From Imbricaverruca yamaguchii (taxonomy: Eukaryota; Arthropoda; Thecostraca; Neoverrucidae): a DNA stretch of 64,000 nt. The translations under genes were made by a program, and so were the position numbers. The notes below the pieces were generated by a model that saw only the letters and a list, made by a program, of their open reading frames with translations, ran no database searches and had not been told where the DNA came from. Below, piece by piece: positions 10,450 through 57,240 of the stretch; within the stretch, counting starts at the first letter, position 1, and every line of letters begins with the position of its first letter. The stretch spans positions 186,001 through 250,000 of the forward strand of contig JAOTOL010001215.1 in NCBI GenBank assembly GCA_034440575.1. The letters run 5' to 3'.

Positions 10450-10640
10450 GTGTACAGGGGTGAACGACCTGCTATGGGTACGGGGCGACGGGACGTGCTG
10501 CGGTTGCTGGGATGACCCAACGCTGATTGCAGGGTTGGCCAACCTGTGGTTGGTGCAGGGATGACCAACCTGTTGCGTTGTGGGAGTGAGCTACCTGTTG
10601 TAGGTGCAGGGGTGACCAACCTGTTGCGGATACAGGCGAC
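10450..10640 (-). repeat. Donor-containing repeats after the TM exon
   Basis: On the coding strand the exon end and donor (CGCAACAG|GTTGGTC) recur with a period of about 25 bp: ACAACAG|GTAGC, CGCAACAG|GTTGG, ACCACAG|GTTGG and, further on, more divergent CAG|GT copies. The first copy is the border of the transmembrane exon itself. Several copies keep a plausible GT donor. Confidence 0.8.
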
Positions 10641-10732
10641 TGCGCCGATGGCAATGACGATGAGCGAAACCACCAGACCAATCAGCACCCCCAGGATAGG
10701 TGTCACAGAGAACTTCGGTCTGGCCGCCGCTT
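10621..10732 (-). CDS. side-like: Transmembrane exon of Sidestep-like gene
   Basis: The acceptor CGGTTGGCAG ends at 10733 and the donor CAACAG|GTTGGT is at 10620. It enters in phase 1 from the fibronectin III exon and leaves in phase 2. A short polar stretch (EAAARPKFSVTP) is followed by about 24 hydrophobic residues starting ILGVLIGLVVSLIVIAIGAV and ending before CIRN, a single-pass membrane helix with a basic inner flank. This fixes the topology: Ig and FnIII domains outside, tyrosine-motif tail inside. Both borders are duplicated in flanking repeats. Confidence 0.85.
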
Positions 10733-10784
10733 CTGCCAACCGAGCCGGGTCAGGTCAGATCAACAGTGACAGGCCACACATGCC

Positions 10785-10865
10785 ACATAATCGATCAGTA
10801 CCCCAAGGATAGGTGTCGAACTTCTGTCTAGCCTGCGCTTCTGCCAAGTGAGCCAGGTCAGGAGA
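10785..10865 (-). repeat. Partial duplicate of TM-exon start and acceptor
   Basis: 108 bp upstream (coding sense) of the transmembrane exon lies a degraded second copy of its acceptor and first half. CACTTGGCAG|AAGCGCAGGC is matched to CGGTTGGCAG|AAGCGGCGGC, followed by ACACCTATCC as in the true exon, with a small deletion. It breaks down before the hydrophobic core, so it is probably not used. Confidence 0.82.
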
Positions 10866-10944
10866 CACCAGGTCGGTAAAGACAGCATGTAGCCTGGGCT
10901 ACTATGCACATCAATATTTGTGGCAAACAAATCGCAGAAAACAA

Positions 10945-11125
10945 GATGACACGGGCAGGACCAAACTCATCACATCTTCAAGATGACACGGACAGGGCAA
11001 ACTCATCACATCTTCAAGATGACACGGACAGGGCAAACCCATCACATCTTCAAGATGACACGGACAGGGCAAACCCATCACATCTTCAAGATGACACGGA
11101 CAGGGCAAACCCATCACATCATCCA
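10945..11125. repeat. 36-bp minisatellite, 5 copies
   Basis: Five near-identical 36-bp units (CATCTTCAAGATGACACGGA, then CAGGGCAAACCCATCA) in the intron between the FnIII and TM exons. CATCTTCAAGATG is nearly palindromic. No splice site is included. Confidence 0.94.
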
Positions 11126-11330
11126 ATGCGCGTAAGTAAGGCTGGCAATAAATTGAACGAAACAGTTATTTATTTTGTGAGACCGAATCAAACTATCCTT
11201 TTTTCTGCGTGTTGTCAAGCATGCATATACTTCGTGGGCCAGCCATGTTAGACAAGGCCGCTCCCGAAAGACGACTAAGTGGCCGAACAGGAGGAACTAC
11301 ACTTCAGCTACCGACGCGTGTCGCACGTAC

Positions 11331-11639
11331 CGGCGTCCTGCGAAGTGCGCTTCTCGGGCACGTTGAGTGTGAACCCGTCCAGGGTGACTGGCTGGCTGCG
11401 GCCGCGGCCGTTGGCTGAGTACAGCTCCAGACGCAGCTGCAGGCCGGCCGGTAGCTGCGTCACCGAGAAGTCGGGGAACGGCCGCGTCACGTTACGCACC
11501 AGCCGCCGGCCGGCCACTGCGTACAGCTCGGCCACGAAGAACTGCGGCAGGCCGCCGTCGAAGCCGGCCGCACACTCCACCTCCAGCGACTCGAACGTCT
11601 GGGCGACGAGCGTGCAGTTGCGGAGCCGCTCCGGCCGAC
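11331..11639 (-). CDS. side-like: Fibronectin III exon of Sidestep-like gene
   Basis: The acceptor CCACCACCCCAG ends at 11640 and the donor GCCG|GTACGT is at 11330; 309 nt, phase 1 to phase 1. The domain begins GRPERLRNCTLVAQTFESLE and continues VECAAGFDGGLPQFFVAELY, with a late LRLELYSANGRGRSQPV. The NCTL...SL.V.C..GFDGGLPQ.F..E pattern is the distinctive FnIII domain of Sidestep proteins, located between the last Ig domain and the membrane. The exon is very GC-rich, as are the other coding exons here. The acceptor region is repeated in the intron upstream. Confidence 0.92.
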
Positions 11640-13014: not shown

Positions 13015-13150
13015 CCACGGCCGTCACTTGGAAGGCACACGGCGCGACCATCCGACCGATATCGTTGTCGGCCTGACACAGCAGAGTTCCATAGTCCGCC
13101 GATGTCTTCGGTGTGTAATACGCGCGGCTCTCCAGGCCTCGGGAAGTGAT
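13015..13150 (-). CDS. side-like: Ig5 second-half exon of Sidestep-like gene
   Basis: The acceptor TTGTCGACAG ends at 13151 and the donor GTGG|GTGAGT is at 13014; phase 0 to phase 1. It encodes SRGLESRAYYTPKTSADYGT, then LLCQADNDIGRMVAPCAFQV. DYGTLLCQADNDIG is the Ig F-strand (D.G.L.C.A.N..G), and the PCAFQV end is typical of the last Ig domain of Sidestep proteins before the FnIII domain. An acceptor duplicate lies 76 bp upstream. Confidence 0.9.
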
Positions 13151-15551: not shown

Positions 15552-16199
15552 TCAGTAGGGAAGTTTGTTGTAGTGGAAGACAGACGAGTAGAGAAATCTC
15601 CTGCGGCCAGCCTCTCTGTGTATGGCTGGCAGGCGCAGATGGTCGTCTGCACGTGTGTGACGGCTTCGCAGGGTAGAGTTTGAAGTGATTTCACCGGCAA
15701 TGTGCGTAGGCTCACCCGTCAGAATGATCTTGTGGAGCAAAGTGAGACTGTGGAATAGGTACAGATCAGCTGCAGTGAGGAGACCCAACTCGTTTCGGAC
15801 ATCAGTAATATGATCAAATTTTCGGAGACCTGACACGACTCTAGTGGCGAAGTTAATGATCTTGTCTAGTCTGTGGATATTTGCTGACGACCCGTTCCCG
15901 TAAACAGATATGCAGTATCGGATATTGGATATAACTAGGCTATTGACTATAGTGAAGAGGGTGCTGGTCGGCAGATGGTGACGCAGATGGTTCAGGGCCA
16001 GAAGGAACCCAGTACACTTCTGGACAACAACAGCTACATGGGAATCCCAAGACATGTGGCGATCAAATGTTACCCCAAGGTTCTTACACGAATGTTTCTC
16101 ATCTATCACGGCGTCCCTAAAGCACACTCGTATCGGGGTAATATTGCGCAGATTTTGACGCGATCCGAGAGTAAGAAGCTGGGTTTTGGTCGGGTTCAC
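15552..16199 (-). pseudogene. LINE-A RT C-terminal region
   Basis: This 215-codon frame directly continues the RT segment after a frameshift: NPTKTQLLTLGS, CKNLGVTFDRHMSWDSHV, LVISNIRYCISVYGNGS, and the tail AAGRRRF-like region before another frameshift near 15555. Its last part is nearly identical to the frame at 42987-43170. Confidence 0.85.
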
Positions 16200-16201
16200 C
16201 T

Positions 16202-17095
16202 TCAGCCGTTATCCAGGAAGTAGTCATAGAGTTGGCTCAGGCATGTTTCCATCTGACTTATCAAATTTGGGAGATCAGATTTCCGACCGGAGATGAGGAC
16301 CTGTGTGTCGTCTGCGAACTGGGTGACATGTGCTACCGGGACGTGCAGACTGAGGTCGTTCGAAAAGATGCAATAGAGAAGTGGACCTAATGATGAGCCT
16401 TGAAAGACACCTATGTTGTTTGGGAGAAAGGAGGAGAGATGCCTGTTTCCGTGTCGATCTGAGATCCTAACAGCCTGCGTATGACCTCCCAGATATGCTT
16501 TAAACCAGTCGGTATCGATTCCATGGAGTTGAAGTTTAGTGAGCAGTTTGGTGTGGTCTATTACATCGGAACATTTACTGAGATCCAGAATGCAAAGGAG
16601 AGCTACTTCCGAACGGTCCATTGCTGCTAGTATTTCGTCCGTGACTGAGATAAGGGCGGTTTCCGTAGAGTGGCGTGGTCTGAAGCCGTGCTGAGTTTGG
16701 GCCAGTAGGTGGTTTGAGTTTAGGTAGTGATAGAGTTGTTTCTGCACCACTCTCTCAGTGATCTTGGCGATAACCGGAACCAGTGAGATGGGTCTAAAAT
16801 TAGAGGGATCCGAAGGATCTCCTGATTTGTGAATGGGAGTTACTATTGACTGTTTCCAAGTGGAGGGTATATCAGCTGTAGTCAGGCATGTGTTTATAAT
16901 GTCAAGCAGCACTTCGCCGATAAAAAAGAACAGAAATTTGATGACCTTAATACAGATCCCGTCGGGTCCGCACGCACTTGTGCTTCTCATGTTTATGACG
17001 ATATTGGCTAGCTGTTCAAGAGATATGGGTGATACTTTATAGGAGCTGGTAGAGACGCGCGATAGCCGACAACTGGGAGATGTGTGTTCAGGCAT
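16202..17095 (-). pseudogene. LINE-A reverse transcriptase segment
   Basis: A 297-codon frame with the RT blocks in order: SACGPDGICIKVIK, IPSTWKQSIVTPIHKSGD, NFRPISLVPVIAKITERVV, QHGFRPRHSTETAL, DLSKCSDVIDHTKLL, GVFQGSSLGPLLYCIFSNDL and the active-site FADDTQVL. In the first aspartate block the usual S.AFD is SKCSD, a change in a conserved spot. The frame is lost at 16204 and the thumb region continues in another frame. Confidence 0.9.
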
Positions 17096-17154
17096 GTTTG
17101 CCTGAAGTTTGACTTCTGCTGATATTTTTGGTCCGACACTAACAAAATAATGAT

Positions 17155-18711
17155 TTAGCTGCTCAGGTAGAACCTGAGGTTGTACTCTGTGAGATCCTTT
17201 TTTGTATCAATAATAGGCTTGATAGCACGCCACGCAGCTGATGGGCCTTTTTGAGCTATCTTTCCGCTAATCTCTTCCCTACAGTCAGCTCTAATAGCTG
17301 ATCGAACTTGTCGGTTAAGTATTTTGTAAGTGTTTCTATCTTGTAAGCGCAAGGCTACATTTCGCCGATGCATGAGTTGTTTGGTAGCTTCGCTAACATG
17401 TGGTGCTGTTGGGTTCCGAATTTTGATGTTTCTGAGTGGCAGGTGCTCGTCGAGGATAGGTGTCAGTAATCTCAGCAGTGTGTCCCATTTATCGGTTACT
17501 GAGATGCGACCAGTGACCTGGACCCAGTCGATCTCACCAAGGTCAAGGGTCAGTTCGGAGGTGTCCACTCGTCCGAAAGAACGTGATTTTATCACGGTGT
17601 TAATTGAGGCAGGCCTGTTTACTTTAATTGAACATGTGATAAATTTGTGGGGACTGTAGTGGCAGAAACTCACTTTGGGTCTGTCGACAGAGGTGGGTGA
17701 ATTTGTTATGATGACATCCAATAAAGAGCCTGTGGAGAATGTAGGGCGCTTCACTATCACGGTAAGTGAATAGTTTCTGACGAACTCAAGCAGGTGTGTT
17801 TTGCTGGGGCAATTTGCCGTGTCGAGAAGATTGCAATTCAGATCACCTGCGAGGTAGAAAGTGCCGGTAAAGTTCAGTGTCGCCAATTGAACCTGTCTTT
17901 CGAGCTCAGCGAAGTCAACATTTAAGGCAGGTAGACTGTTACGAGGAGGTCGATAGATTGCCGCCAGAATGAAATACCTTCCGCTTTTACCTTTGACTTT
18001 GGTCCAGAGTGATTCTAATTTGGAGCTCGAGTTTGGAAGCGTAGAAATTTTCAAAACGGTAATAGTAAGCGCTGACTTGGCGATAATCGCCACCCCACCG
18101 TAGCCACTAGAGTCAGGCCGGTCCGCACGTTTTAACTGGTAACCAGGGAAGTTAATGAGACGCGTGGGGGTGCTAGGTCGCAGCCAGGTCTCAGTCACCA
18201 CAGCTAGGTCTAGAGAGTAAGAAAGAAAGTCGTGTTGTAGCTCAAGTAGCTTAGGTTTCATAGATTGGGCATTTATGAGTCCCAGGTGCAGCTGCCCGTT
18301 GCGCTCCTGAACCGTCGCTTTGCTTGTTCCGCCCCGTGATCCCCGTCGTCTGCCACCCCTGGCGCCGCGCGTGCCCCGTCGTGTTTTCTTTGGCGTTGTC
18401 AGGGTAACGCCGACGGTCTGGTTTATCGTTCTGCAGATGCGAGGGTGGTGACTGGCGGGAGTCAAGGTCGCGTAGTTGATGGCGTCGCGTACGGGGCGGC
18501 TGCGTGCGCGTTGCTGACCGGGGGACGTGATGGCGTTGAACATTTGGACCAGGGCGATGGTTAGCAGAAACCTGATGATGTCTGTATGCATGGTAGAGCT
18601 GAAAATGGAAGACCGGTAGAGCTGAAGATGGAAGACTGGTAGAGCTGAAGATAGACGATAGGAGGTAGACGTCACTGTTGTTAGAGTCACAAGAATTCCG
18701 AGCGGCACCAA
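17155..18711 (-). pseudogene. LINE-A endonuclease-containing ORF
   Basis: A 518-codon frame. After a basic N-terminal stretch (KKTRRGTRGARGGRRRGSRG), it shows the APE endonuclease order: LGLINAQSM (N), AVVTETWL (E at the catalytic T-E-T-W motif), GYGGVAII, LAAIYRPPRNS, FYLAGDLNCNLLD (the D-N pair), LLDVIITNSP, and SFCHYSPHKFI where functional enzymes have S.H. It loses frame near 17185, before the RT domain. The start methionine is not certain; an internal ATG at about 18590 is the alternative. Confidence 0.85.
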
Positions 18712-19734
18712 GTCGTCAGTCCAATCAATTTCATCTCAGCTGCAGTGCAGGAAAGAAGACTGGGCACGGGCAGTAGCTGATGCTTGAACTATGGAGAAGG
18801 GCGCTGTTACTTCAGCACACACTCAGTTTGTAGGAGTCCAATCACTGTTGTGTAAACTTTGCGCACGTGTAGCGTATAAGTACGTCGGTTTAGATCACTA
18901 TGCCACTTTTTCTTCTTTTTATTTTTACTCGTACACTTCACTAGTTTGTTCACTTCTTCACTAGAACACTTCTTCACATGTTCACTTCTCACTCAGAGTA
19001 TCACACACCTTGCATACAAAGGCAACGAAGAGGGCGAGGGAAAGGCTGGGGGAGCGACCGAGACGCGTCAGCTCGTGGCGCCGCGCTCAGGACAACTGCG
19101 GCCTCAGCTAGGCTACTGTAATCTAACTATGAACGCGTGCGGCGAATTTTCGGAATAAAGGTCCTTGCCAGAACCACCCGTTCAGTAACATAGAAGTTAC
19201 CCATTTTGAATGTAGACTTCCGGACACCTGTTGCTACTGCTGCTGTTGTGATGACTTCTCACCATGAAGACATATGAACGAGATCGAATTCGAAATGTTC
19301 GTGTGATATTCTCGCTTACGATAAAATTTGTACCACGTCAATAAAAGAGCGCATGACTGGTTTGTGGTTTGAGTTCTTAAGCCATTGGTGTGCTTTTGTG
19401 CTATGTCTTTGGTAAACTTGATTTGAATTTGTCTCAAACTATGCAACTGTCAGCATGTAATTCGTTCCTAAGCCCCAATTTCTCACAAAAAAAAATCCCT
19501 GTAATTGATTGACTTCAAAAATAATATTTGTAGATTGATTAAAGTTACAAAGCATGCACGTTCATTTTTCATCAAACAAATTAAAACCTAGTTATTGTTC
19601 GGGTGGCTTTATGAACCACGGTTTTATTGCTAAGCAAAGTTAGTTGCGTGATGCCTAGTCCCACCACCCGATGCACGAATTCTAGTTCAACGGAATAATT
19701 TTGACCAAAAGTTTAACGTGCCGTCAATGTACCG

Positions 19735-20871: not shown

Positions 20872-23260
20872 ATGTTTAGGACATGCCTTGAAGAGGACCT
20901 GTTCTTACACCAGTTTGAAACTGAACCTACCAGGCATGGCTTGGACCTTGTATTATCGGATTTAAGTGACTTGGTTCAAGACTTGACTGTAGGAGAAACT
21001 TTGTGAAGAAGTGACCATAACATAGTTAGATACAAGGCACATGTAGTGGGAATTATTCATGATAATTTCGTAAAGGTTCCGAATTTCAACAGAGCAGACA
21101 TTGACTGCATGAGAGCGGCTTTAAGTGCCACAAGATAGGAATAATAATTATCCAATTTAAATACCTGTGAAATGTGGGAAAACCTAAAATCTTACTTGAA
21201 GGACATTCAGATTAGACCTGTCCCCAAAAGCAAAGGCGCAAAAAAGTAGGAAAGCCAGCATGGTCTACACCAGACTTGATAAAGGCAATTAAGGCTCAGA
21301 AAGCTGCAATAAGGAAGGTTAAGGAAGCTTCAAATATCGTAAATCTAAAGGCGTATCGAAAAGCTAGCGACACAGTGAAGCAAAAAACCAGAGCAGCAAA
21401 GCGAGCAAAAGAACTGGATTGGGCTAGGAACTGTAATGGGGACTGCAAAAAGTTCTTTAGCTTCTACAAGCTGAGTAAAGTTTCTAGCACAATTGGTCCA
21501 CCACTGGAAGTAAATGGGACTATATTGGGTGAGGATAGTGAGATGGTTGAGGAGCTGAGCAAGTTTAAATCAGTGACATGACCAATCTGCCGACCGTACA
21601 CCATGGTCCAGTGACATGTGATCGGATAAATGATGTTGATTTCATCGATAGTGATGTTGTTTTCAATCATGTCAGGAAAATAAAGCAAAACAAGGCAGCA
21701 AGACCTGACGAAATTTATGCTAGGGTGTTGCAGGAAGCTGAAAAGGAACTGGCATTTCCACTTAGTATAATATTTTGTAGATCAGTTTCACAAAATGAAA
21801 TTCCAATAGATTGGAAAAGGGAAAATGTAGTTCCTACTTCCAAGAAAGGAGAAAGAGGGAACGTTGAAAACTATAGCCCAGTAAGTCACATGCGTGGTCT
21901 GCAAGGTACTCATATCAATTACCAAGTCTAGAATAGTTAGTTATCTGGAAGGAAATAGGTTGATTCAAGATACTCAACATGGGTTTAGAAAAGGGCGATT
22001 GTGTCTCACAAATCTCGTGGACCTTTTGAACTTCGCCACAGAACAATTTGATCTGGGAAATCAGGTTGATGTAGCATATCTTGACTTTAGTAAGGCCTTT
22101 GACAAGGTACCCCAGAAACGGTTAATGCTGCAGCTTCAGATCCATGGTATTGCAGGTAGCATCTGAAAATCGATAGAGTTGTGGCTTTCAAACAGACAGC
22201 AAAGAGTGATTCTAAATAGTACAAAGTCATCATGGTAAAATGCTCTTTGTGGAATCCCCCAGAGGTCAGTAATGGGGCCACTACTGTTCGTTGCATTTGT
22301 AAATAACATTGAAAGTGGCCTAAGCAGTAAGGTTTTGAAATTTTCGGATGATTTGAAGGTCTTTAGGGCAATAACAGGTCACAATGAGCATATCTCGCTG
22401 CAGAAAGACTTAGACGAACTTGTGAAGTGGTCCGAAGAATGGGAAACGAAATTTAACTTTGATAAGTGCAAAATCATGCATGTAGGTAAGCAGCATGTGC
22501 AGCCTCCATACTTGATGGGTGGCGAAGTGCTATCAGTGACTCAACAGGAGAAGGACTTAGGTGCTATTCTAAACACAAAATTAGGGGCATCAGAACAGAC
22601 CAAGGAAGCCAGGAAGAAGGCACTGAGAATGTTTGGGGAAATAAATAGCAATGTATCATACAGAAGTGAGGAAGTCATCAGGAAGCTTTACTGTGCATAT
22701 GTCAGGCCACATTTGGAATATTGCATCCAAGCTTGGTCTCCTAGCTATGAAAAAGATGGTTGGCTTTTAGAGAGTACAATACAGGGCTACAAAAAAGGTT
22801 AATGGCATAGGCAACCTGGCATATGAGGAAGGATTGAAAATATTAAATATGTTTTCACTTAGATATAGAAGGCTGGGAGGAGATCTCATCGAGGTCTTTA
22901 AATTTGTCCATGGTCTGGAGAAGGGATATCTTGGGGATATGCTTGAATTTAACAGAAATTATGCAATTAGAGGTCATCAATTCAAAATTACAGTTAACCA
23001 CAGCAGAACAATGTTAAGCCAGTCTTTCTTCACCAACAGGATTGTAGAACACTGGAACTGCTAGAAACCATTGTCAGTAGCAGCACATTGAACGTCTTTA
23101 AAAACAGCATAGACAATCATTATAAGAATAGAGGGCTTGCTTTTCAGTATTCCAGTGAGGGTTGATTGACGGATTTGGTGGCCAACTGGTTAAGTGTACA
23201 GAGTGCAACCAAGAAGGGCCCTTATGGCTCATAGTTGCACTAATCTGTTATGTCTTTATG
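20872..23260 (+). mobile_element. LINE-B, CR1-like retrotransposon, 5'-truncated
   Basis: It begins inside the endonuclease (HGLDLVLSD, then SDHNIV) and continues with a linker segment (21276-21581), RT blocks RPDEIYARVLQE, IPIDWKRENVVPTSKKG, QHGFRKGRLC, YLDFSKAFDKVP, MGPLLFVAFVNNI and FSDDLKVF (the active site is SDD instead of ADD), and then KCKIMHVG, RPHLEYCIQAWSP and NYAIRGHQFKITVNHSRT near the C terminus. The 3' UTR has CCAAGAAGGGCCC and GGCTCATAGTTGCAC, also present in fragments at 59.9-60.1 kb. It contains many frameshifts and stops and is an old inactive copy. Confidence 0.88.
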
Positions 23261-26709: not shown

Positions 26710-26867
26710 TTGAGAGTATGGTAGGTCGACTGTTCCCTCCAAATTGTTAAACTGCCACTTGAAGTTGACATCGTGTGGGTTGGCATCCACCTGACACGTG
26801 ACCTGCACTGGTTCGTTAGGAGCAGTGCCGTAGCGGACCTTCTGGCCGGAGACGCAGACGGGCGCAT
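26710..26867 (-). CDS. side-like: Ig5 first-half exon of Sidestep-like gene
   Basis: The acceptor CGTCCCACAG ends at 26868 and the donor TCAA|GTAAGC is at 26709; phase 1 to phase 0. With the preceding exon it reads KYAPVCVSGQKVRYGTAPNE, then PVQVTCQVDANPHDVNFKWQ and FNN. The VTC.VDA.P..V.F.W.FNN block is the B-to-C strand region of the last Ig domain in Sidestep proteins. It joins the Ig5b exon across an intron of about 13.6 kb holding LINE-A and LINE-B. Its borders show no repeat arrays, unlike most exons here. Confidence 0.9.
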
Positions 26868-27570: not shown

Positions 27571-28399
27571 TTTGCAAGCATCATTCCCGTTTAAAACGAA
27601 CATCCGATAGTCACATGAAATATTAAACGCAGTACTCTTCAGCATTTAGAAATCATAACAATATGAAACATAGCACATTTCGATTAATATGTTCAGAGTT
27701 AGAAAAGGAAAAATTGCTGATCAGGTTTGGAGAACTTCTGTTATATTGCCCATCAACACATTCTTGTTGTTGTGTTGATTGCATTTGGAAGCAAATTCAG
27801 CTTCGGCGTCAAAATAGATCCCAATGTGATTCCGAGTTAGAAAAACGGGCATTTTAGGGCGAGTTCCGTGACCGCGAATGGTCTGAGAGAGCTCAATGCA
27901 TCTACGCCAGCTGAGATGTTCATTACCTTGCCACACTCAACATTCGCTTTTCAGCGACGATAAATACTATTGTTCACCGGTAATTGGCAGTTCCGCCCAA
28001 AATCGACCTGAAATGTTTTTTCTTATGACATCAAACACCAGTAACCTGACGCACATTTGACCATGACCATGACCATTATACCATGACGTCGGCAAAGGAC
28101 GCCTCATCAGATGTACCAGGCGACCGTGCGCTAACGCGTGCGATTGTTTCTTGGTTGCGAAAATACCCCCAGGGTGGTGGTCGCATCAAGCCACCCCCTG
28201 CACTAGCAAGGGAAAATCTGCTGTCTCATTAATGCACTCAACATGATCAGTGCACTGGTATGTACTGACTGGCTGAACATACATTCATATTTGGCACTAA
28301 GCTGGTAGGATTTTCGTCCATTAGCATCAGCAACTGTATGTACAAGATTTTGTAGCGGCTGGTGGGCGAGTAATATCTGATCCAAATAACCTGAGAGTG

Positions 28400-28585
28400 T
28401 GGTACTCACATTTAACATTGAGCTGGACATGTGATACTCACATTTGACATTGAGCTGGACATGTGATACTCACTTTTGACATTGAGCTGGACATGTGATA
28501 CTCACATTTGACATTGAGCTGGACATGCGATACTTACATTTGACATTGAGCTGGACATGTGATACTCACATTTGACATTGAGCTG
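28400..28585 (-). repeat. 32-bp donor-containing array after Ig4b
   Basis: Six units of 32 bp on the coding strand carry CAGCTCAATGTCAAAT|GTGAG, the last bases of the Ig4b exon with its donor. The highest-coordinate unit is the real exon border (28570) and five more copies follow in the intron. The GT is kept in all of them, though one copy has GTAAG and one has an altered base before it. The period is not a multiple of three. Confidence 0.92.
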
Positions 28586-28741
28586 TACGGGGCGGCTGGC
28601 CTGGTCGCCCTCCTGGTTGGAGGCCTTGCAGACGTACGCTCCGGCCGACAGCCTGCTGACGTTGCGGATCACCAGACTGCGGTCACTGAGGCTGACCCTG
28701 TCTCTGACACCCGACTGGGAGGTCGGCCGCAGCTGCACACC
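28570..28741 (-). CDS. side-like: Ig4 second-half exon of Sidestep-like gene
   Basis: The acceptor TTGTTACGCCAG ends at 28742 and the donor CAAAT|GTGAGT is at 28569; phase 0 to phase 1. It encodes GVQLRPTSQSGVRDRVSLSD and RSLVIRNVSRLSAGAYVCKA, then SNQEGDQASRPVQLNVK. L.I.NVSR..AG.Y.C.A.N.EG is the E-F strand of an I-type Ig domain, matching Ig4 in Sidestep proteins. The donor is repeated five times downstream. Confidence 0.92.
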
Positions 28742-31419: not shown

Positions 31420-31550
31420 ATCGCGAAACCAGATGACGCTGTAGATCCTTGGATTGGCTTTGATGGTGCAGTCAAAGTAGGCGTCGGCTCCCTCCTTGAT
31501 GTCGTCAGGGTCGAGAGCGTATCCAAGCTGTAGAGTCACCAACGGCGCAA
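31420..31550 (-). CDS. side-like: Ig4 first-half exon of Sidestep-like gene
   Basis: The acceptor TTTGTTGCAG ends at 31551 and the donor GCGAT|GTCAGT is at 31419; phase 1 to phase 0. It reads (F)APLVTLQLGYALDPDDIKEG, then ADAYFDCTIKANPRIYSVIW and FRD. LDPDDI.EG.D.YF.C.I.ANP is the hallmark start of Ig4 in Sidestep proteins (N/LNPDDIEEGDDVYFEC type). Its acceptor is the lowest-coordinate member of a 30-bp in-frame array, and the frame stays open upstream through all copies. Confidence 0.92.
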
Positions 31551-31710
31551 CTGCAACAAACAGCCTCACTAATGGCGCAACGGCAACAAACCCAACCATT
31601 AACGGCATAACTGCAGCAAACAGCCTGACCAACGGCGCAACTGCAACAAACAACCTTTTTAACGGCGCAACTACAGCAAACACAGCCTTGTCAACAAGGG
31701 AGGTGCACTG
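31541..31710 (-). repeat. 30-bp in-frame acceptor array before Ig4a
   Basis: Five units of 30 bp (coding strand GTTTGTTGCAG|TTGCGCCG, TTGGTGAGGCT) include the acceptor of Ig4a. Of the four extra copies three keep the AG (GCAG, TGCAG, GTAG) and one has CCG. The period is ten codons and the frame is open across the array, so an upstream acceptor would add one or more AVAPLVRLFV-like decapeptides. Confidence 0.92.
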
Positions 31711-32840: not shown

Positions 32841-33043
32841 CCGGGACGTTGCAACGACTTTAGTTCTCACCATGGAGGTATATTGGACAATCGGGGCGGG
32901 ATGATGTGGAGCTGCTTACAGTGATATGGGTGAGGGGCCGGGCCTTCTCCAACATTCTAACTGTGGCCGTGCCCCCTCCCCCCCCCCCCACAGTCACGGC
33001 TGAGCTGGTTTTTTTTCTTCGCCGGTGACCATTACCCATTGAG

Positions 33044-33427
33044 CTAACGTCGGTGCTCCAATAGTCCATCGGCGACCTGTGTGTTCTCGGCTAGACACAC
33101 CAGCTGACGACAGTTGTCCCCGTACTCACATCTGACATTGAGTTGACGTCGGTCCTCCAGTAGTCCGTCGGCGACCTGTGTGTTCTCGGCTCGACACACC
33201 AGCTGACGACAGTTGTCCCCGTACTCACATCTGACATTGAGCTGACGTCGGTCCTCCAATAGTCCGTCGGTGACCTGTGTGTTCTCGGCTCGACACACCA
33301 GCTGACGACAGTTGTCCCCGTACTCACATCTGACATTGAGCTGACGTCGGTCCTCCAGTAGTCCGTCGGCGACCTGTGTGTTCTCGGCTCGACACACCAG
33401 CTGACGACAGTTGTCCCCGTACTCACA
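33044..33427 (-). repeat. 99-bp in-frame donor array after Ig3b
   Basis: Units of exactly 99 bp (33 codons) repeat the last part of the Ig3b exon together with its donor. Starts of GTACTCACATCT lie at 33122, 33221, 33320 and 33419. Each unit encodes GDNCRQLVCRAENTQ and VADGLLEDRRQLNVR followed by CEY, which spans T|GTGAGTAC. The frame is open across the array, and four equivalent GTGAGT donors are present, including the real one. The last unit (33044-33120) is truncated and ends AATGG|GTAATGG. Confidence 0.95.
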
Positions 33428-33571
33428 TCTGACATTGAGTTGACGTCGGTCCTCCAGTAGTCCGTCGGCGACCTGTGTGTTCTCGGCTCGACACACCAGC
33501 TGACGACCGTTGTCTCCGGGACGTGCTCGAAACGACAGCGTGCTGCTGGTGATGTTGGACCCGTCCGACTG
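33427..33571 (-). CDS. side-like: Ig3 second-half exon of Sidestep-like gene
   Basis: The acceptor CTCCTGTGCAG ends at 33572 and is part of a CAGCAG (NAGNAG) double site; the donor AGAT|GTGAGT is at 33426. Phase 0 to phase 1. It encodes QSDGSNITSSTLSFRARPGD and NGRQLVCRAENTQVADGLLE, then DRRQLNVR. L.C.AEN is the F strand of Ig3. It joins WWINDKQLTDDTQT of the Ig3a exon. Both borders lie in repeat arrays: donor copies downstream and about 25 acceptor-like copies upstream. Confidence 0.92.
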
Positions 33572-34880
33572 CTGCACAGGAGGGTCGGTACTGTGTCAGA
33601 CTGAAGGGTCACACCCCTCTACTGCTGCACAGTAGGGTCGGTACTGTGTCAGACTGAAGGGTCACACCCCTCTACTGCTGCACAGGAGGGTCGGTACTGT
33701 GTCAGATTGAAGGGTCACACCCATCTACTGCTGCACAGGAGGGTCGGTACTGTGTCAGATTGAAGGGTCACACCCATCTACTGCTGCACAGGAGGGTCGG
33801 TACTGTGTCAGACTGAAGGGTCACACCCCTCTACTGCTGCACATGAGGGTCGGTACTGTGTCAGACTGAATGGTCACACCCCTCTACTGCTGCACAGGAG
33901 GGTCGGTACTGTGTCAGACTGAATGGTCACACCCATCTACTGCTGCACAGGATGGTCGGTACTGTGTCAGACTAAATGGTCACACCCATCTACTGCTGCA
34001 CAGGATGGTCGGTACTGTGTCAGACTGAAGGGTCACACCCCTCTACTGGTATACAGGAGGGTCGGTACTGTGTCAGACTGAAGGGTCACACCCATCTACT
34101 GCTGCACAGGATGGTCGGTACTGTGTCAGACTAAATGGTCACACCCATCTACTGCTGCACAGGAGGGTCGGTACTGTGTCAGACTAAATGGTCACACCCA
34201 TCTACTGCTGCACAGGAGGGTCGGTACTGTGTCAGACTGAAGGGTCACACCCATCTACTGCTGCACAGGATGGTCGGTACTGTGTCAGACTAAATGGTCA
34301 CACCCATCTACTGCTGCAAATGAGGGTCGGTACTGTGTCAGACTGAAGGGTCACACCCCTCTACTGGTATACAGGATGGTCGGTACTGTGTCAGACTAAA
34401 TGGTCACACCCATCTACTGCTGCACAGGAGGGTCGGTACTGTGTCAGACTGAATGGTCACACCCATCTACTGCTGCACATGAGGGTCGGTACTGTGTCAG
34501 ACTAAATGGTCACACCCATCTACTGCCGCACATGAGGGTCGGTACTGTGTCAGACTGAAGGGTCACACCCCTCTACTGCTGCAAAGGAGGGTCGGTACTG
34601 TGTCAGACTAAATGGTCACACCCATCTACTGCTGCACAGGATGGTCGGTACTGTGTCAGACTGAATGGTCACACCCATCTACTGCTGCACAGGAGGGTCG
34701 GTACTGTGTCAGATTGAAGGGTCACACCCATCTACTGCTGCACGGGAGGGTCGGCACTGTGTCAGACTAAATGGTCACACCCATCTACTGCTGCACATGA
34801 GGGTCGGTACTGTGTCAGACTGAAGGGTCACACCCCTCTACTGGTATACAGGATGGTCGGTACTGTGTCAGACTGAAGGG
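33572..34880 (-). repeat. 53-bp acceptor-containing array, 25 copies
   Basis: Twenty-five units of 53 bp between 33583 and 34860 carry on the coding strand CCCTCCTGTGCAG|CAGTAG, the same sequence as the acceptor of Ig3b. Most copies keep the NAGNAG. Variant units have TATACCAG in place of TGCAGCAG. Two more degraded copies follow to about 35000. The array is clearly built on the exon border: the first unit includes the real acceptor and then passes into exon sequence. Confidence 0.95.
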
Positions 34881-35269
34881 TCAACGCTGTCAACTGGTAC
34901 ACAGGTGAGTCGGTAATCACTCAGACTGATAGGTCAAACCGCCTCGACTGGCGATCATACTTAAAGATCAGTCCCCCTCGACTGATGCACAGGAGAGCTG
35001 GTCAGAGTCTGCTAGACTGAAGAGTCCGCATGAAGAGCCGAAGATACGTGAGATGTGAACCCGGAGGTTGACTAACATTGAGAAGACACGCCGATGCTGC
35101 ATACTGTCTGAGCAGTCTTCACACATGCTGCATACTGTCTGAGCAGTCTTCACACATGCTGCCACATACGCACTTGAAATGTCTCTATATTGATTATTTC
35201 CCAATGAGGGGCTGAAATACCGATGACCTCACAACCAGAGATCTGCAGAGTCGATCTATGGGGGACGAG

Positions 35270-41349: not shown

Positions 41350-41601
41350 GATCACCACTTATTTGTCACTGAGGTGGTACTACATTGACCATCTATGCAA
41401 CACCGGTGATGCTACACTGGTAATCTGCGTATTACCGGTGGTGCTACACTGACCATCCGTTTGTCACTGGCGGTGCTACACTGATCATCTGCGTAACACC
41501 GGTGGTGCTACACTGACCATCCGTTTGTCACTGGCGGTGCTACACTGATCATCTGCGTAACACCGGTGGTGCTACACTGACCGTCTGCGTGTCGTCGGTG
41601 A
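41350..41601 (-). repeat. 32-bp donor-region array after Ig3a
   Basis: About seven units of 32 bp derive from the end of the Ig3a exon and its donor (coding strand CGCAGACG|GTCAGTGTAGC). GCTACACTGA on the plus strand recurs at 41411, 41443, 41475, 41507, 41539 and 41571. Alternating units keep GGTCAGTG (a usable GT) or have GATCAGTG (GT lost). Confidence 0.9.
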
Positions 41602-41736
41602 GCTGTTTGTCGTTGATCCACCAGGTGATGTTGGCCGGCGGCCGGGACCCGAAGGTGCGGCAGACGATGTCGTAGGTCTCGCCGGCCGACAAGGAGGTCC
41701 GCGACGAACCCAGGATCTCCACGGTCAGAGGACGAA
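41582..41736 (-). CDS. side-like: Ig3 first-half exon of Sidestep-like gene
   Basis: The acceptor CTATCTTGCAG ends at 41737 and the donor AGACG|GTCAGT is at 41581; phase 1 to phase 0. With the last base of Ig2b it reads FRPLTVEILGSSRTSLSAGE, then TYDIVCRTFGSRPPANITWW and INDKQL. PLTV.ILG....SAG..YD..C...GSRPPA.ITWW is a strong Sidestep-family Ig3 signature. Donor-derived 32-bp repeats follow immediately. Confidence 0.93.
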
Positions 41737-43494: not shown

Positions 43495-46400
43495 GGCAAT
43501 TGTCCACGCCTCTCACGCCGGCTGCCGCGTGTTAGTTGTTAGTAGTTGGTTAGTCTAAGCATGTCGTGCAGGGGTGTCAGTTGGGTTAGTATGCTGTTTG
43601 ACAACTTGGCTCTGCTGCGTCCGCTGTTCCTCTGGGTAGCCATTTACGTTAGGAGCCGGAAGGAAAATCGGCTCATCTACGTCCGACGGCTCTTCTGGGT
43701 AGTCGTTTTACGTTAATCTACATTTTCTTTTCTTTTTTTGTTTTTGTTTTAGTTTCTATGTTTTCCTAAAGGAAGTCGGTCCATCTACCTCCGACGGCAC
43801 CTCTAGGTAGCCCAGTATTCCTAACTGGAAAGCAAATCGGCTCATGTACGTCCGACGCCATGCTGGGATGGCTATTTACGTGTTTCCTACGAGCGTTTCA
43901 CGGTTATTTATTACAAGTTGGTGTGAACGTTGGTGGTGTGTTGCCTAGAGAGCTCCTGTTAGTTTTGTGGCATGCAGCTATTCATTGAGTTCTGCGTGTT
44001 TGTCACCGATAAGCGATGGAAGCGATAGGGTGATGCCCTCTTTCTGGCAGAAGGCCTTATGTGGTTGTCTCTGGGAGCTAAAGCCACTGCAGTCTAGTAG
44101 GATGTGGCCTATGCTTAACGTGGTATTGCAGGTGTCGCAGTGAGGTGTTGTGTGTTGGTCATCCTCTAATCGAGGCTGTGCTAGTTTTGTGCAACCGGTT
44201 CTAAGTCTAGTGAGGATGACCTCTTTTTGTCGGTGAGACTGATTTGGTGTATTCAATGTGCCTATGGTTGGTTTTATTGCGTGGGCGTGGTTGGATTTGT
44301 GCTGTGTTGAATTGTGTTGTGCCTATGTATTCTGTTGGTGTTGGCGAATGCGATGTAGGAGTGCTTTGCAGTCGTCTACCGAATATTCCACGCTGGGGTA
44401 GGGGTTCGATGCTAAGGCTTGCTTTGCGAGCCGGTCTGGTTCTTGGTTACCTGGGATGTTGGCGTGGCCCGGAATCCAGAGGAAGGAAAAGTTCATGTTT
44501 ACGTTATGGGCCACGATTTGTTGGATTCGATCAATGAAGTGATCGAATCGAAGGACAGTCGTGGGTGTTACTAATTGACTGTAGGACGGATTTGGAGTCT
44601 GAGCAAATCACTACGTTTCTGACTTTTGCTTAATGAGAATGGAAATAGCGGCCAGAATGGCCATTGCTTCAGCGGAGTAGATGGCGAAGTTACCGGTGGA
44701 CGTTTGGAAAGTCTGAGACCTGGTCCAGTGATACCGATGCGTACCTTAGCCTCGTGTTTCGACCCATCCGTGAATACGAGTGATTTGTTATCGTTGTCAT
44801 CGGCGAACTTGTAAAAGAGGCCTAGCATCTCCGCCGATGTGATAGTGGCGTTCTTCTACGAGAGCAAGTACTCGACCCTTGGTTGACTAAAAGTCCAGAA
44901 TGGCCTAGTGGGCGGTCGAGGTGCAGTGGATGGCGTTGTGAGGTTAATATCTGAGAGAGCCGTGGAAATTTGAATGCTATATGGTGGACGTTTGCGCGCA
45001 AATCGGCTCTTGTCGTATCTGTCAGGCATGAAGCAGCGCTGTGCCGGATGATTTTGAATGGATTTGATTTTGATGTGGTAGCGGCACAGCTGTTGTGTCC
45101 TCATGTGGTAGAGTGATGGTGTGTTTGAGTCTACTAGAAGGCTAGCTATCGGTGTAGCGCTAAGGGCGCCTGTGGCTGCTCTGATGCAGCGGTTTTGGAT
45201 GACTTCTAATTTTTGGCTCTGATTTTCTGAAATTGTGGAACAAAATGATGCTGTTGTATTTTATGATGTGTCGTGTGATTGATGTGTACAGTCTCAGAAG
45301 TGTTTTCCTGTCTCCGCCCCAGTCTGTGCCTGCGAGTGCACGTATTCTGTTGACGCGCTTCGCTTCGTGATGTCGGTGATATGGGTGTTGAAACTGAGTT
45401 TTTCGTCTAAATGAACTGGAAAAGGAACTTGAAAGGAACTATTAGGAACTTGAAACTTTTCACCTGCTCGATGGCTTTGCCATCGATTTTAAGTAACGTT
45501 TTCGGTGTGGGACGGAAACGACTATAAGTGACCGTGGCCGATTTATCTGCGGACAGGGCGAAGCCCCAAGTTTTGCACCACTTTGTAGTGTGGTCTAAAC
45601 CTGCTTGAATTTTTGTTTAGCTTTAAAGAAGCATTGTGATGTCCAAATTGCTATGTCGTCCGCGAAAAGTGAGTATTGAAGTGAAGTGTCCCCGTGGTCG
45701 GCAAATATGTCGTTGATCATGATGATGAAAAGGCTCGGTGAAGGCACGCTCCCCTGAGCCAGGCCCTGCTCCTGAGTTGTGGTGTTTGATGTGACACTGC
45801 CGCATCGGACCCTAAGAGTCCTATCTCTGAGGAAGCTGAGAATGAAGTGTGCCACGTCTCCGCGTAGGCCTATCTTATGGAGTTTGTGTGTCAGTGCTGA
45901 CTTGTGTACTCGGTCGAATGCGGCAGTGATGTCTAGGTAGGCAGCTATTGTTGTGCGTTTAATGTATAGTCCACTTTTGATGTCATGCACCAACCCAATG
46001 AGATTGTCTGTAGTTGATTGTTACCGTTGGAAGCCGCATTGAAATTCGTCGAGCTGGTCGCTGTGTTCCAGAAATTTCCTTAATCGTGTGTTGACCATGC
46101 GTTCGACCAACTTGCTAGCACAACTAGTAAGTGGGATGGGTCTATACCCTTTTTGGGATGGAGTGATCTTTGTGCGGCTTTGGTAATGGTATGACTACGC
46201 TCTCCCGCCTGGATGTGGGAAACGCGTCGCTTTGGTACAGTTTATTTTATGGCCGCTAGTAGATAGGTTAGGGAGTTTTTGCTAAGACGGTTAAGAAACT
46301 GGTAATGGATGTCGTCCGGCCCAACTGACGTGTTTCCACACTTGCTGAGGGCAAGTTGTAATTCGTGCATAGTGAATGACTGTCTGTAGATTTCTCTATT

Positions 46401-47401
46401 GTTAGAGCTAAAATTTGCTTTGGAGGCAAGGGCGTCCAGGACGCTTACTATAGTGATGTCATAGTTACTGTTGCCGGACACGCTGGCATAGTGTAGTTTA
46501 AAGTGGTCTACTACTTGTGGGTCAGTGATGTGCTGTTCATTCACCGCCAGCTGGGGGAAGGGGCCTGGTGGTGGGAGTTTCAGGTTGAAGCGCTTCATCA
46601 GGTCCCAGATTCTGCCGGTAGGTGTGAACCTATTGAATTGCGAGGCAAAAGACTGCCAAGAGTTTTGGCGTGCTGCTCGAATTGTGTACCGGCAGTGTAT
46701 TTTTTTAGATCGTCTGCATGCTGATAGGTGTGCTTCACACAAGCATCTTTTGAATTGTTTGTGGGCACGGCGCCGTGCGGCGATTGCCTTTTGACAGTCC
46801 GGGGTCCACCATGGCGTAGATGCTTTTTCCTAGGTTTGTTACTTTTTGGGACTGAGTCTTGTGCTCCTGAGCTGATGGCCCAAAGGGTTGTCTCTATCTT
46901 ACTGGTATGTGAAAGTGCTAGGTTGAGATCCCCCTGTTCTTCGAATTTAGCCCAGTCCGCTCTTTTCAACATCCAAGATTGTCTGAATAGCTAAGTGGGG
47001 TGGATAGCGTCCGTGCTGAGCCTAATTGTGATCTGATAGTGGTCGATCAGCCCGGGAACGTCTGAAACTGACCAGTCAAATAGTGAGCTAAATCGTGGGG
47101 TGCAGCACGTTAAGTCTATGCAAGTGTCCGATCCTAATAAGGTCGGGTTGTGGAGGGTGGCGGCCCCGGTGTTAAGAAGTACTAAGTTGTGGTCCGAAAT
47201 AAACTGGAGAATTCTGTGCCCTCTAGTGTTTGTATGGTACGCTTCCCCATGAGGGAATTTGTATCGTAAGGACTCTGGACACAAATATCGATATTTTAAT
47301 ATTATCGAACTCGTAGGTTTGATGGACAGTGCACACGCATTATGTATTCTCACTGAACTCGAAAGCATTGGCGAAGCCAGGGCTTCATGAACTCCGGGCA
47401 T
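43495..47401 (-). mobile_element. LINE-C, I-type LINE with RNase H, inactive
   Basis: In order from high coordinates: the end of an endonuclease (AYHTNTRGHRILQFISDHNL, then SDTCIDLTCC), a linker, RT blocks (46742-45595: NTSVGPDDIHYQFL, AAYLDITAAFDRVHKSALTH, QGLAQGSVPSPSLFIIMIND, YSLFADDIAIW), RNase H (44828-44323: SLVFTDGS, FSFLWIPGHANIPGNQEPD), and the C-terminal LTRLRTGCTKL with a CDTC...H knuckle (44256-43978). The 3' UTR holds three copies of an AAATCGGCTCAT..ACGTCCGACG unit (43620-43900). RT followed by RNase H places it with the I/Ingi/R1-type LINEs. Frames are broken repeatedly. Confidence 0.88.
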
Positions 47402-51664: not shown

Positions 51665-51868
51665 AGTTGATGTCGAGTGTGACGTCGTTGACGGCCGGCA
51701 GACTGACGTTGGTGTTGGCCGCCGAGCAGATGAGCCGGCTGTGCAGGTCGTGTCGGGTCAGCGGCGGCAGCTGCAGCACGTTGCTCACCTGACCTCGGCC
51801 GGCCGGCCGGTCAGAGTCGTCCAGAAGCCGCTCGCCACGGAACCACGTGACACGCGGACGGGGCCGAC
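51665..51868 (-). CDS. side-like: Ig2 second-half exon of Sidestep-like gene
   Basis: The acceptor GTGACCGCCAG ends at 51869 and the donor CAACT|GTGAGT is at 51664; phase 1 to phase 1. It reads GRPRPRVTWFRGERLLDDSD, then VSNVLQLPPLTRHDLHSRLI and CSAANTNVSLPAVNDVTLDI. GRPRP.VTW....LLD and L..L.R.DLH.RL.C.A.NTN...P are the conserved second half of Ig2 in Sidestep proteins. The ORF is GC-rich with a strong CG third-position preference. Confidence 0.93.
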
Positions 51869-54795: not shown

Positions 54796-55581
54796 CGTAT
54801 GGAGAGGGAGACGGTGAGTGAGTACTGTGTTGCAACTGGTCGTCGTAGTGTCATGCTCTTGTCGATGATGACTCGTATGATTGCACGCATAATCATTATT
54901 TGCTCTCTTCGAATACGCCAACATCGATGGCAGGCACCGTGACAATTTGTGCCACAGGATCACCTTTGGATCCAGGTCCCGATACCGTCGGGTTCTCGTT
55001 AGTTAGACTTGTGCAAACATTTCATGAACACGTGATGCATGGCTAATGTCGATTTAAGCGGGCCTGGTGTCTCAGGGGCACGATATTGGGCGGTGGGTTC
55101 GACACTGCAAAACTTGTTAGCGTTATCTATACAGCTATGCGTGCTCAGTATTTCGTTACCGGATTTGGATCACTGAAATAGACATGTAGATGTTGTATGA
55201 TATTGATTGCCGAAAGGAACCATAATTATCGGGTTAGATTATGCTAAATGTTATTCCTAAGAACGTCATTGAAGCTGCTCGATTCGTTTTCCGGCTTCCT
55301 GGAACTGAAACAAATTGTGGCCAGGTCCACAGGTCGGCGCGATGGTCTCTGCCAACTATCTTGCAAAGCAAATATCTAGCAACACTCACCTTCCTGGCAG
55401 AATCAAACGACCGAATTACCTCCTTGAGACAGCTTGGGGACCCACACTTCTGGGTGAGTGACCAAACGGCTACCAACTCGCCTCCCTTCACGTCTTGAAT
55501 AGACTCACCACCCGCCCCTCTGGAAGAGTCAACTATCTCGGTGCTCACTTCTCTGCGAAGGACAGGTTAACCGGAGCTTAC

Positions 55582-55689
55582 CCCCTTGGACGAGACAGGT
55601 GAGTTCCAGGGGCTCGTCCTCGAACAGGGGGCCGAATCTGCCCGACACCGGTCTGTTGTTGTGGATAATGATTGGTCGGTCCGGCGGAA
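55582..55689 (-). CDS. side-like: Ig2 first-half exon of Sidestep-like gene
   Basis: The acceptor GTACGTTTCAG ends at 55690 and the donor AGGGG|GTAAGC is at 55581; phase 1 to phase 1. With the last base of the Ig1 exon it reads IPPDRPIIIHNNRPVSGRFG, then PLFEDEPLELTCLVQGG. PP..P.I.......G..GP..E...L.L.C.V.GG followed by RPRP.VTW is the Sidestep Ig2 arrangement. The exon is only 108 nt. A 41-bp intronic minisatellite lies 160 bp upstream but does not include the acceptor. Confidence 0.92.
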
Positions 55690-55846
55690 CTGAAACGTAC
55701 GCCGGGGTTACAGCTACGCTGTGCGCCACATTCTCAGTCATGTCATGGCCTGGCGACTGGAACTGGTCGACGATACTATGCGATACAAGTCGACCAAGCG
55801 GGACGGAAGCCGTCGACGTCGTGCGACTGTTGGCTGTTCGTGGCAA

Positions 55847-56011
55847 CTGGAAACAGGATCATGATCTCGCCCATTAGCATACATCAACCGGAAACAGGAC
55901 CATCTTATCGCCCTTTAGCATGCATCAACTGGAAACGGGGCCGTGTTATAGCCCATTGCCATACATCAGCTGGACACAGGTCTGTGCTCTCGCTCATTAG
56001 CATACATCAAC
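55847..56011. repeat. 41-bp minisatellite, 4 copies
   Basis: Units of 41 bp start at 55847, 55888, 55929 and 55970 (CTGGAAACAGGATC, then TCGCCCATTAGCATACATCA). On the coding strand each has TGCTAATGGGC, which resembles a branch-point sequence. Confidence 0.9.
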
Positions 56012-56799
56012 TAGAAAGACTTAAGTGACACTTTGTGAGAGCTCATTTAGTGGAAATCGCACCTGCTTCACCTTTCTAAAGAACGGACATGACATGAACA
56101 GGACATACGGAGTAGTTTAAGTGCACAACAATCTGAAAACTACAGCAAGAGGGAAGCATCATCACTAACCAAACTGGCTGCTGCACTGCTCCGACTAAGT
56201 GATGTGTTAGCCGGAAATCACAGAACATTCCTATCGTGCATTTCCACGATTCAAGACAACTTTTCCTGTTGTTCCCATGCCCACTGCCACATCGTGAGGA
56301 AATAGTATCTATCATGGTCTGGTAAACACGCCATTCAGGATTTTGGTGATGACCGTCGTGAAAATGACGACCTCACGACAATGTATCAGAAGCTACGGCC
56401 TCTTGCTGAACCACTCAGTAGGCTTCACTGTCAATTACGCGGTTAGTAATTAAACGTGCACACTGGGGAGAGGGAAGGCCAGGTCGCGTGGCTTGGGCGG
56501 TAAACATGTGAAGTGGACAGACGGACAACTGAAAATACACCATCGTCAGGCTTCGAAGGCTTCGAAGAAAAAAAACACGCTCTGAAGTAAATTATCTCTG
56601 ACGGTGTATCAATAAACGTATTTATTCTGATCCATAATACACGATTCTATTTTTGTTTCAAGGCAAATTAAGCATTCTAGAAACCTTCGCTGGTCAATTT
56701 ACCAAGGATGACGAAATAGCCGAATCCACCTGGGATCCATTAACGAATAGATATGTACATGTTTATTTTCCAATACAACAGCGTCTACCTCTCTCATGG

Positions 56800-57031
56800 G
56801 CTGAACTGTGAGATAGACTCTTCTGTGGGAGAGACTGTGAGGTAGACTCTCCCGTGAGTGGAACTGTGAGGTAGACTCTCCCTTGAGTGGGACTGCGAGG
56901 TAAACTCTCCATTGAGTGGGACTGTTAGGTAGACTAGCGAGTGGGAGGGTAACTCACTAGTGACTGTGAGGTAGATCCTCTCATTGCGGGTGGGACTGTG
57001 AGGTAGACTAGCGGGTGGGAGTGTAACTCAC
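56800..57031 (-). repeat. 29/74-bp donor-region repeats after Ig1
   Basis: Repeats made from the end of the Ig1 exon and its donor. The exon end GGATCTACCTCACAGTCACCA|GTGAGT is copied once 74 bp downstream as GGATCTACCTCACAGTCACTA|GTGAGT, with a usable GT. A further 29-bp array (GTGAGGTAGACTCTCCC on the plus strand, about 5 copies) derives from the CTACCTCACAGTCCCAC part. Confidence 0.88.
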
Positions 57032-57240
57032 TGGTGACTGTGAGGTAGATCCTCTCGTTGCGGGTGGGACTGTGCCGGAAGTCGACTCGACACCGGTACA
57101 GACCCTGGTCCTGTGGTAGTGCACTGCCCAGCCGCAGTGACGGCCGGTCCGTGTGTGTCAAGAAGATAGCACGTGCGCCCTTAGCCGCGCCGAGTCCAAC
57201 CGCAATGTCGGAGAACGACTTTCCGCCCCGAGCGTCAAAG
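57032..57240 (-). CDS. side-like: Ig1 second-part exon of Sidestep-like gene
   Basis: The acceptor CTCTCCCTACCAG ends at 57241 and the donor CACCA|GTGAGT is at 57031; it starts with the last base of a codon and ends in phase 1. It encodes FDARGGKSFSDIAVGLGAAK and GARAIFLTHTDRPSLRLGSA, then LPQDQGLYRCRVDFRHSPTR and NERIYLTVT. D.G.YRCRVDF..SPTRN....LTV is the most diagnostic motif of the Sidestep family (end of the V-type Ig1). The first Ig1 part with its cysteine and the signal peptide are upstream and not found in the remaining 6.7 kb. Confidence 0.92.

Follow-up and report, generated by a model that had tools for sequence, protein, structure and literature searches.

The window analysed here is a stretch of 64,000 nucleotides from contig JAOTOL010001215.1 of the barnacle Imbricaverruca yamaguchii, whose assembly comprises 767 Mb in 1430 contigs. 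It contains a minus-strand gene in which 11 of the 22 predicted exon-intron borders were found to be included in the unit of an adjacent tandem array or single duplication. A total of eleven exons were placed, running from Ig1 (57032-57322) through Ig2a (55582-55689), Ig2b (51665-51868), Ig3a (41582-41736), Ig3b (33427-33571), Ig4a (31420-31550), Ig4b (28570-28741), Ig5a (26710-26867), Ig5b (13015-13150) and FnIII (11331-11639) to the transmembrane exon TM (10621-10732), all on the minus strand. The membrane segment of TM was judged by eye. All ten predicted joins keep a single stop-free frame and the inferred borders are mutually consistent; the joined predicted product has 639 residues.

The top matches of this product are barnacle proteins (48-73% identity), the closest being annotated as 'nephrin-like'. 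The best match comes from Amphibalanus amphitrite (66% over 96%), and 'nephrin-like' proteins of Pollicipes pollicipes match at 65% over 89% and, for another, 73% over 69%. Insect proteins rank after those of barnacles, the first of them being a beetle sidestep IV (43% over 96%). An amphioxus source, which repeats of this type might suggest, is rejected on the barnacle matches; the lack of a GFP-family match carries little weight, as control genomes gave none either. Among solved structures, Ig1 matches Sidestep IV chain 9nq2 (E = 4.3e-12) and also Sidestep VI chains. For stretches of several domains, structures of titin, SYG-2 and Roundabout outscore the Sidestep chains, as is expected from the immunoglobulin domains that they share. 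Sidestep-type homology extends along the ectodomain in the protein alignments, and no tested feature separates the gene from the Sidestep family. On these alignments we take the gene to belong with this family of immunoglobulin cell-surface proteins. The region labelled FnIII in an earlier, sequence-only reading of the window aligns with the homologues, and Pfam fn3 is absent from the eight families matched.

Border repeats and other features of the gene

Arrays reported by Tandem Repeats Finder with a period of at least 15 cover seven of the 22 borders, namely the donors of Ig1, Ig3a, Ig3b, Ig4b and TM and the acceptors of Ig3b and Ig4a. This number compares with 2.1 expected by rotation (P = 0.031), 2.3 by random placement (P = 0.013) and 2.45 under free shuffling (P = 0.022). 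A gapped search, with the 50-base segment centred on each border as query and a score of at least 38 as threshold, found a border-spanning copy at 11 borders, six of them donors (Ig1, Ig2b, Ig3a, Ig3b, Ig4b and TM) and five acceptors (Ig3b, Ig4a, Ig5b, FnIII and TM), and found none at the remaining 11. Random intron positions in the same gene reach this threshold in 8.0% of cases, which corresponds to 1.8 expected borders out of 22 (binomial P = 2.6e-7), and at the strictest gapped threshold tried (60) four of the 22 borders still had a copy (P = 0.034). An ungapped search (at least 31/40) detected copies at seven of the 22 borders, compared with 7.4% of random positions, but not those at Ig2b, FnIII, the Ig3b acceptor and the TM donor. 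As the window was selected for its border-repeat pattern, these P values cover this gene and constitute no genome-wide test.

The seven arrays, all on the minus strand, differ in unit and copy number. The Ig1 donor lies inside an array (56803-57093) of 29- and 74-base units, the 74-base unit as cut containing 37 exon bases, and the Ig3a donor array (41373-41590) consists of 6.8 copies of a 32-base unit. Exon Ig3b has an array at each end: the acceptor array (33568-34940) has 25.9 copies of a 53-base unit, with about four exon bases, and the donor array (33037-33518) has 4.9 copies of a 99-base unit, equal to 33 codons, in which the frame is open throughout. The Ig4a acceptor array (31536-31682) has 4.9 copies of a 30-base unit. 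At the Ig4b donor (array 28398-28585, 5.9 copies of a 32-base unit) the exon tail CAGCTCAATGTCAAAT and the adjoining donor GTGAGTATC recur into the intron every 32 bases, with GT kept in all five extra copies. Finally, the TM donor array (10528-10626) has 3.8 copies of a 26-base unit.

The other four border copies are single old duplications, not arrays. The Ig2b donor retains one decayed duplication of 46 aligned bases with a 2-base gap at the GT, the FnIII acceptor has one diverged copy upstream, and the acceptors of Ig5b and TM each have a single duplication, 76 and 108 bases upstream, respectively. Border copies were found at neither end of Ig2a or Ig5a. The border-spanning units range from 26 to 108 bases in length and, among the 17 array or duplication units compared, are unrelated in sequence with one exception, the Ig3b and Ig4b donor units, which have in common some 23 bases made up of exon tail and donor. 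The sequence-only reading had reported border-including repeats at nine of the eleven exons, and this was correct: the 11 borders that it named are exactly those returned by the gapped search, with no others, and its unit lengths were confirmed for Ig1, Ig3a, Ig3b, Ig4a, Ig4b, Ig5b and both TM borders. Its proposal that each array arose from its own local border is likewise supported.

An exon might also have been extended into a nearby array, in which case the border would have moved instead of seeding the array. This is disfavoured for the present gene because the exon parts of several units (the LNVR and LNVK ends, LTVT, and the starts of Ig5b and TM) align with sequence that is coding in other barnacles and in a beetle.

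A likely last coding exon, which encodes the tail of the protein, was placed by hand at 5413-5604 on the minus strand, outside the region covered by the sequence-only reading, and Tandem Repeats Finder shows no array at its border. It encodes VTYAEL followed by VIYAAM, which we take to be a tyrosine motif resembling the immunoreceptor tyrosine-based inhibitory motif (ITIM). Motifs of ITIM-like form, searched with two patterns, are present in 19 of the 120 listed homologues, including three of the four best barnacle matches, several insects and ticks. The introns of the gene hold retrotransposon remains at 15552-18735 (minus strand), 21216-23064 (plus strand) and 44000-47400 (minus strand); matches to reverse transcriptase were found for three of the nine frames scanned in the window, and one frame matched an endonuclease. 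About 19 copies of an 8-base repeat, GTCTGTCC, precede a long TC run (283-682 and 1005-1878 of the window), and two minus-strand open frames nearby matched no Pfam family.

Border arrays in a wider sample of exons

A further 94 exons (188 borders), not chosen for repeats, were sampled from the assembly. Set I consists of 54 I-set immunoglobulin exons with 108 borders (loci L009-L028 and L069-L088) and set K of 40 kinase exons with 80 borders (loci L029-L068). The first I-set sample comprises 20 stretches with 34 of the 150 listed matches; six of these 34 lie in open frames of more than 220 residues, the edges of which are possibly not exon ends, and one contains a stop. The second I-set sample comprises 20 more matches picked by hand down the list. 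The kinase sample comprises 40 of 136 matches having a partial domain, no stop and a frame of up to about 225 residues, and the eligible rows left out include C221:9419-9697 (kinase) and C1190:721019-721267 (I-set). Splice-site scores close to the domain edges served to infer the borders, and borders within each set are not fully independent since both sets include paralogous exons. For all sets, the GC-matched and gapped-copy null expectations (GC being guanine plus cytosine) were derived from the 20 large immunoglobulin stretches.

Arrays make up 28.6% of the non-exon DNA in the 20 I-set stretches of 10 kb and 24.7% in the I-set stretches of 1.2 kb, compared with 13.4% in the 40 kinase stretches and 12.6% in the gene described above. 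The minisatellite share near immunoglobulin exons is therefore about twice that around kinase exons or in this gene. Arrays cross 16 of the 108 set I borders (11 + 5 in the two samples) and two of the 80 set K borders, and are thus commoner at the borders of immunoglobulin than of kinase genes (Fisher P = 0.005). Clear examples are the donor of L017 and the donors and acceptor of L021, together with the L015 acceptor, where the 122-base unit includes 94 exon bases, and the L060 donor in a kinase gene, with a 90-base unit.

When arrays were scattered freely, set I was expected to have 14.4 + 5.9 crossings and has 11 + 5, while set K was expected to have 7.1 and has two, so that neither set shows an excess. 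Nor do border-spanning gapped copies, which were found at 20 of the 108 set I borders against 26.5 expected from random intron positions and 41.5 from GC-matched ones, and at four of the 80 set K borders against 19.6 and 27.6, respectively. The sequence-only reading had looked to overlap with position-shuffled controls as its check, and by that measure the sampled borders outside this gene are not above chance. Taken at face value, 18 crossed borders out of 188 and gapped copies below their immunoglobulin-locus nulls are what would be seen if arrays simply filled the genome and some of them landed on borders with zero enrichment. The free-shuffle control, however, lets arrays swallow exons and counts the insides of long arrays. 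The ends of the immunoglobulin arrays, moreover, concentrate at borders 2.7-fold over the GC-matched expectation, and the overlap in our gene exceeds that under free shuffling, though this gene was chosen for its pattern. We regard pure chance as highly improbable.

In our judgement plain overlap is insufficient as the only test of seeding because borders can be met only near the end of an array, whereas intron positions can lie anywhere within one. The positions of the exon-facing array ends fit this question better, since an array can extend into a functioning exon by no more than part of its final unit.

Array ends, base composition and the origin of the arrays

Array ends pile up at the sampled immunoglobulin borders. 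Their density in set I is 3.7/kb within 30 bases either side of the border and about 0.5-0.65/kb beyond 100 bases, which amounts to a 6.3-fold concentration over the region 100-450 bases away (bootstrap 95% interval 3.6-10.9, 40 loci resampled). In set K the ends lie mostly just outside the acceptor. Base composition follows a similar course: GC content, at 63-67% within the sampled exons, drops to 59-65% over the adjoining 60 bases and to 50-51% at a distance of 200-500 bases, with set I borders averaging 65.5%. Away from exons, arrays have 61% GC and non-array intron 51%, and the density of array ends climbs with GC from 0.5-0.6/kb in tiles below 42% to 3.4/kb in tiles above 66%. Matching tiles for GC cuts the set I concentration from 6.3-fold to 2.7-fold, and GC content accounts for much of the pile-up. 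Arrays are also seldom found deep in exons: among 68 domain edges, an array covers the position 40 bases into the exon at 3% and the position 60 bases outside it at 28%.

The explanation that we consider probable is that these are minisatellites of the mirage type, described from lancelets and compared below, which in this barnacle would result from the GC-rich birth of repeats combined with tolerance of those duplications that lie across a single exon edge. Tandem duplications would arise constantly, with a preference for GC-rich DNA, and then expand. Exons and their close flanks being GC-rich, many founding duplications would be expected to fall across an exon edge. When a founder straddles one edge, the exon and a splice site would stay intact at one end while the extra copies come to lie in the intron, where they may be tolerated. 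A founder inside an exon would not be tolerated, and the surviving arrays would therefore look as if anchored on splice sites. The kinase borders agree with this explanation, showing seven array ends where GC-matched tiles give 6.0 and two crossings where exon-sparing scatter gives 1.5.

Under this explanation the extra copies would be neutral. The splice signals are retained in many of them, with GT kept in 15 of 19 extra donor copies and AG in 24 of 30 extra acceptor copies (39 of 49 at eight borders; the TM acceptor yielded no copies in this count, and Ig2b and FnIII lie outside it). At three of the eight borders (Ig1, Ig4b and Ig5b) the six-base core is more conserved than either the exon or the intron part of its unit; it is less conserved than either at one (the Ig3b acceptor, 0.91 vs 1.0 and 0.93) and intermediate or equal at four, a comparison that is a description and not a statistical test. 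Unit lengths are multiples of three in nine of 28 cases by hand count, as by chance, the 28 units being ten from the window and 18 border arrays or duplications from the wider sample. Both observations are compatible with neutrality.

Selection might instead retain the copies: they could act as reserve splice sites where introns are long, or they could supply protein variants at immunoglobulin domain ends. The higher frequency of crossed borders in immunoglobulin than in kinase genes would agree with this, as would the open frame of the 99-base unit at the Ig3b donor and a 'nephrin-like' gene model from Pollicipes. This model, P0003, contains a tandem copy of the 29-residue Ig3b exon end at about residues 230-288, coinciding with the site of the 99-base array in the window. 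Only one other of the 120 listed homologues, however, shows a repeat of this kind, and P0003, as a predicted protein, could represent either a true variant or an annotation error in which an intronic copy was mistaken for an exon. Intronic copies of exon ends are easily called exons, as this model may show, and call for caution in annotation. Since the cores are not consistently conserved and the unit lengths show no frame preference, we consider selective retention very unlikely, and the suggestion in the sequence-only reading that extra splice sites are useful finds no support.

The age of the arrays was approached through paralogues in the wider sample. Eighteen paralogue pairs were inspected by hand, and two were dropped as their inferred borders are non-homologous. 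At eight homologous borders one or both paralogues carry an array that crosses the border, the exons being 82-90% identical, and at seven of these eight the array is present in one paralogue only. The exception is L017/L024, where both paralogues have an array, with units of 31 and 34 bases that agree in their exon part and differ in their intron parts. For one exon of L018/L021 the two inferred donors are offset by about 21 bases. Read most simply, this distribution means that the arrays are probably younger than the paralogues, although loss from one paralogue could produce it as well.

Exon pairs on different contigs with 82-94% nucleotide identity are themselves a feature of the sample (L009/L010, L015/L023, L017/L024, L018/L021, L034/L035, L056/L059 and L063/L067). 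They look as after large-scale duplication, or like very divergent haplotypes.

Several results weigh against GC-rich repeat birth and tolerance as the whole explanation. In GC-matched tiles 9.0 array ends were expected at set I borders and 24 were seen (P = 2.6e-5), a 2.7-fold excess at immunoglobulin exons that goes beyond what this explanation predicts. When arrays were scattered so as to spare exons, 1.6 + 1.44 crossings were expected in set I against 11 + 5 seen and 0.43 in this gene against seven. Array ends in this gene number five within 30 bases of a border, with 0.9 expected from its own tiles or 1.5 from those of set I. Before GC matching and against its own baseline, set K shows a 2.9-fold pile-up as well (interval 1.0-7.4), and its GC-matched expectation of 6.0 ends against seven seen may be too high, as the tiles came from the array-richer immunoglobulin loci. 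In view of the excesses in immunoglobulin genes and in this gene, and of the softness of the kinase comparison, something besides GC content and tolerance may act.

One candidate is a genuine hotspot of tandem duplication at exon borders, where a lesion linked to transcription or replication at the junction would be repaired by local duplication and so seed an array. The immunoglobulin pile-up, both before and after GC matching, speaks for such a hotspot, together with the kinase pile-up before matching, the apparently independent arrays at one donor in L017/L024 and the duplication of the Ig3b exon end in Pollicipes P0003 as well. Against it stand the 80 kinase borders without a clear GC-matched excess, array overlap that is not above shuffles, gapped copies that are below random intron positions, and the fact that both paralogues carry arrays at only one of the eight homologous borders. 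We consider a hotspot unlikely, although a true border effect may exist at least in immunoglobulin genes. The claim of the sequence-only reading that borders act as seeds is accordingly upheld in part: border arrays recur in other genes and array ends concentrate at exon edges, whereas seeding in all genes is not borne out, the GC-matched kinase excess not being clear.

A more far-reaching view would be that the ends of immunoglobulin-type exons in barnacles are recurrent and conserved birthplaces of tandem duplications beyond the effect of GC, with some repeats entering the protein, as Pollicipes P0003 would illustrate, and the borders feeding both length variants in cell recognition and new introns. 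We think this improbable, and GC-rich repeat birth with tolerance of edge-straddling duplications remains our preferred reading.

Comparison with known border repeats

The sequence-only reading knew of no published description of such repeats as a recurrent property of a gene. This does not hold, as lancelet genes for Adh3, globins, troponin C and PGBD5 are reported to have them. Passages of PMC3087553 describe mirages in lancelet globin genes, cite Adh3 and other loci, and suggest a role in intron creation; PMC3902484 likewise presents, in part of its text, a mirage in PGBD5 and cites troponin C. In the literature on barnacles and other arthropods no title or abstract opening was found to report border arrays, an absence that is weakly tested. 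The words 'tandem' and 'minisatellite' are absent from the available main text of two barnacle genome papers (PMC8270832 and PMC8917513), passages of which mention novel, diverged or simple repeats.

A second relevant system is that of human genes in segmental duplications. According to passages of PMC2812944, minisatellites occur at exon-intron boundaries in these genes, with units averaging 30 bases and four copies; they differ between paralogues and are reported to make new introns. The human cases lie in recent segmental duplicates and comprise 27 intron modifications after inspection, whereas the present cases come from DNA sequence alone. In the difference between paralogues the human boundary repeats and our wider sample are alike, seven of our eight homologous borders being one-sided.

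Mirages have been proposed as a route to new introns, and the passages cited report them in a few lancelet genes. In that model, intron birth starts with a duplication across a splice border. With arrays at about one in seven of the sampled immunoglobulin exon borders, the barnacle genome offers many natural replicates of this step. The question of seeding becomes countable, and the genome also supplies paralogues that can be compared at one homologous border, one of them with an array and the other without.

The structure found here is the same as that of the amphioxus mirages in Adh3, the globins BflGb6 and BflGb9, troponin C and PGBD5, as far as the cited passages describe them: minisatellite units of about 10-160 bases that span a border, at donors or acceptors, with the splice signals in many copies. 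In our gene the tandem units include the exon-intron border (11 of 22 borders, seven as arrays), both 5' and 3' borders are affected, unit lengths vary between loci, and GT or AG is present in many copies. Three differences were noted. The globin and PGBD5 cases involve, in those passages, one or two borders per gene, whereas 11 of 22 are involved here in a single gene. Normal splicing of the mirages is supported by reverse transcription polymerase chain reaction, whereas splicing here is predicted from the open frame across the joins. Mirages are cephalochordate and the present gene is from an arthropod, although taxon marks the place of description and is not a structural criterion. As far as we have searched, the border arrays are new for this animal group and of a kind already named in lancelets.

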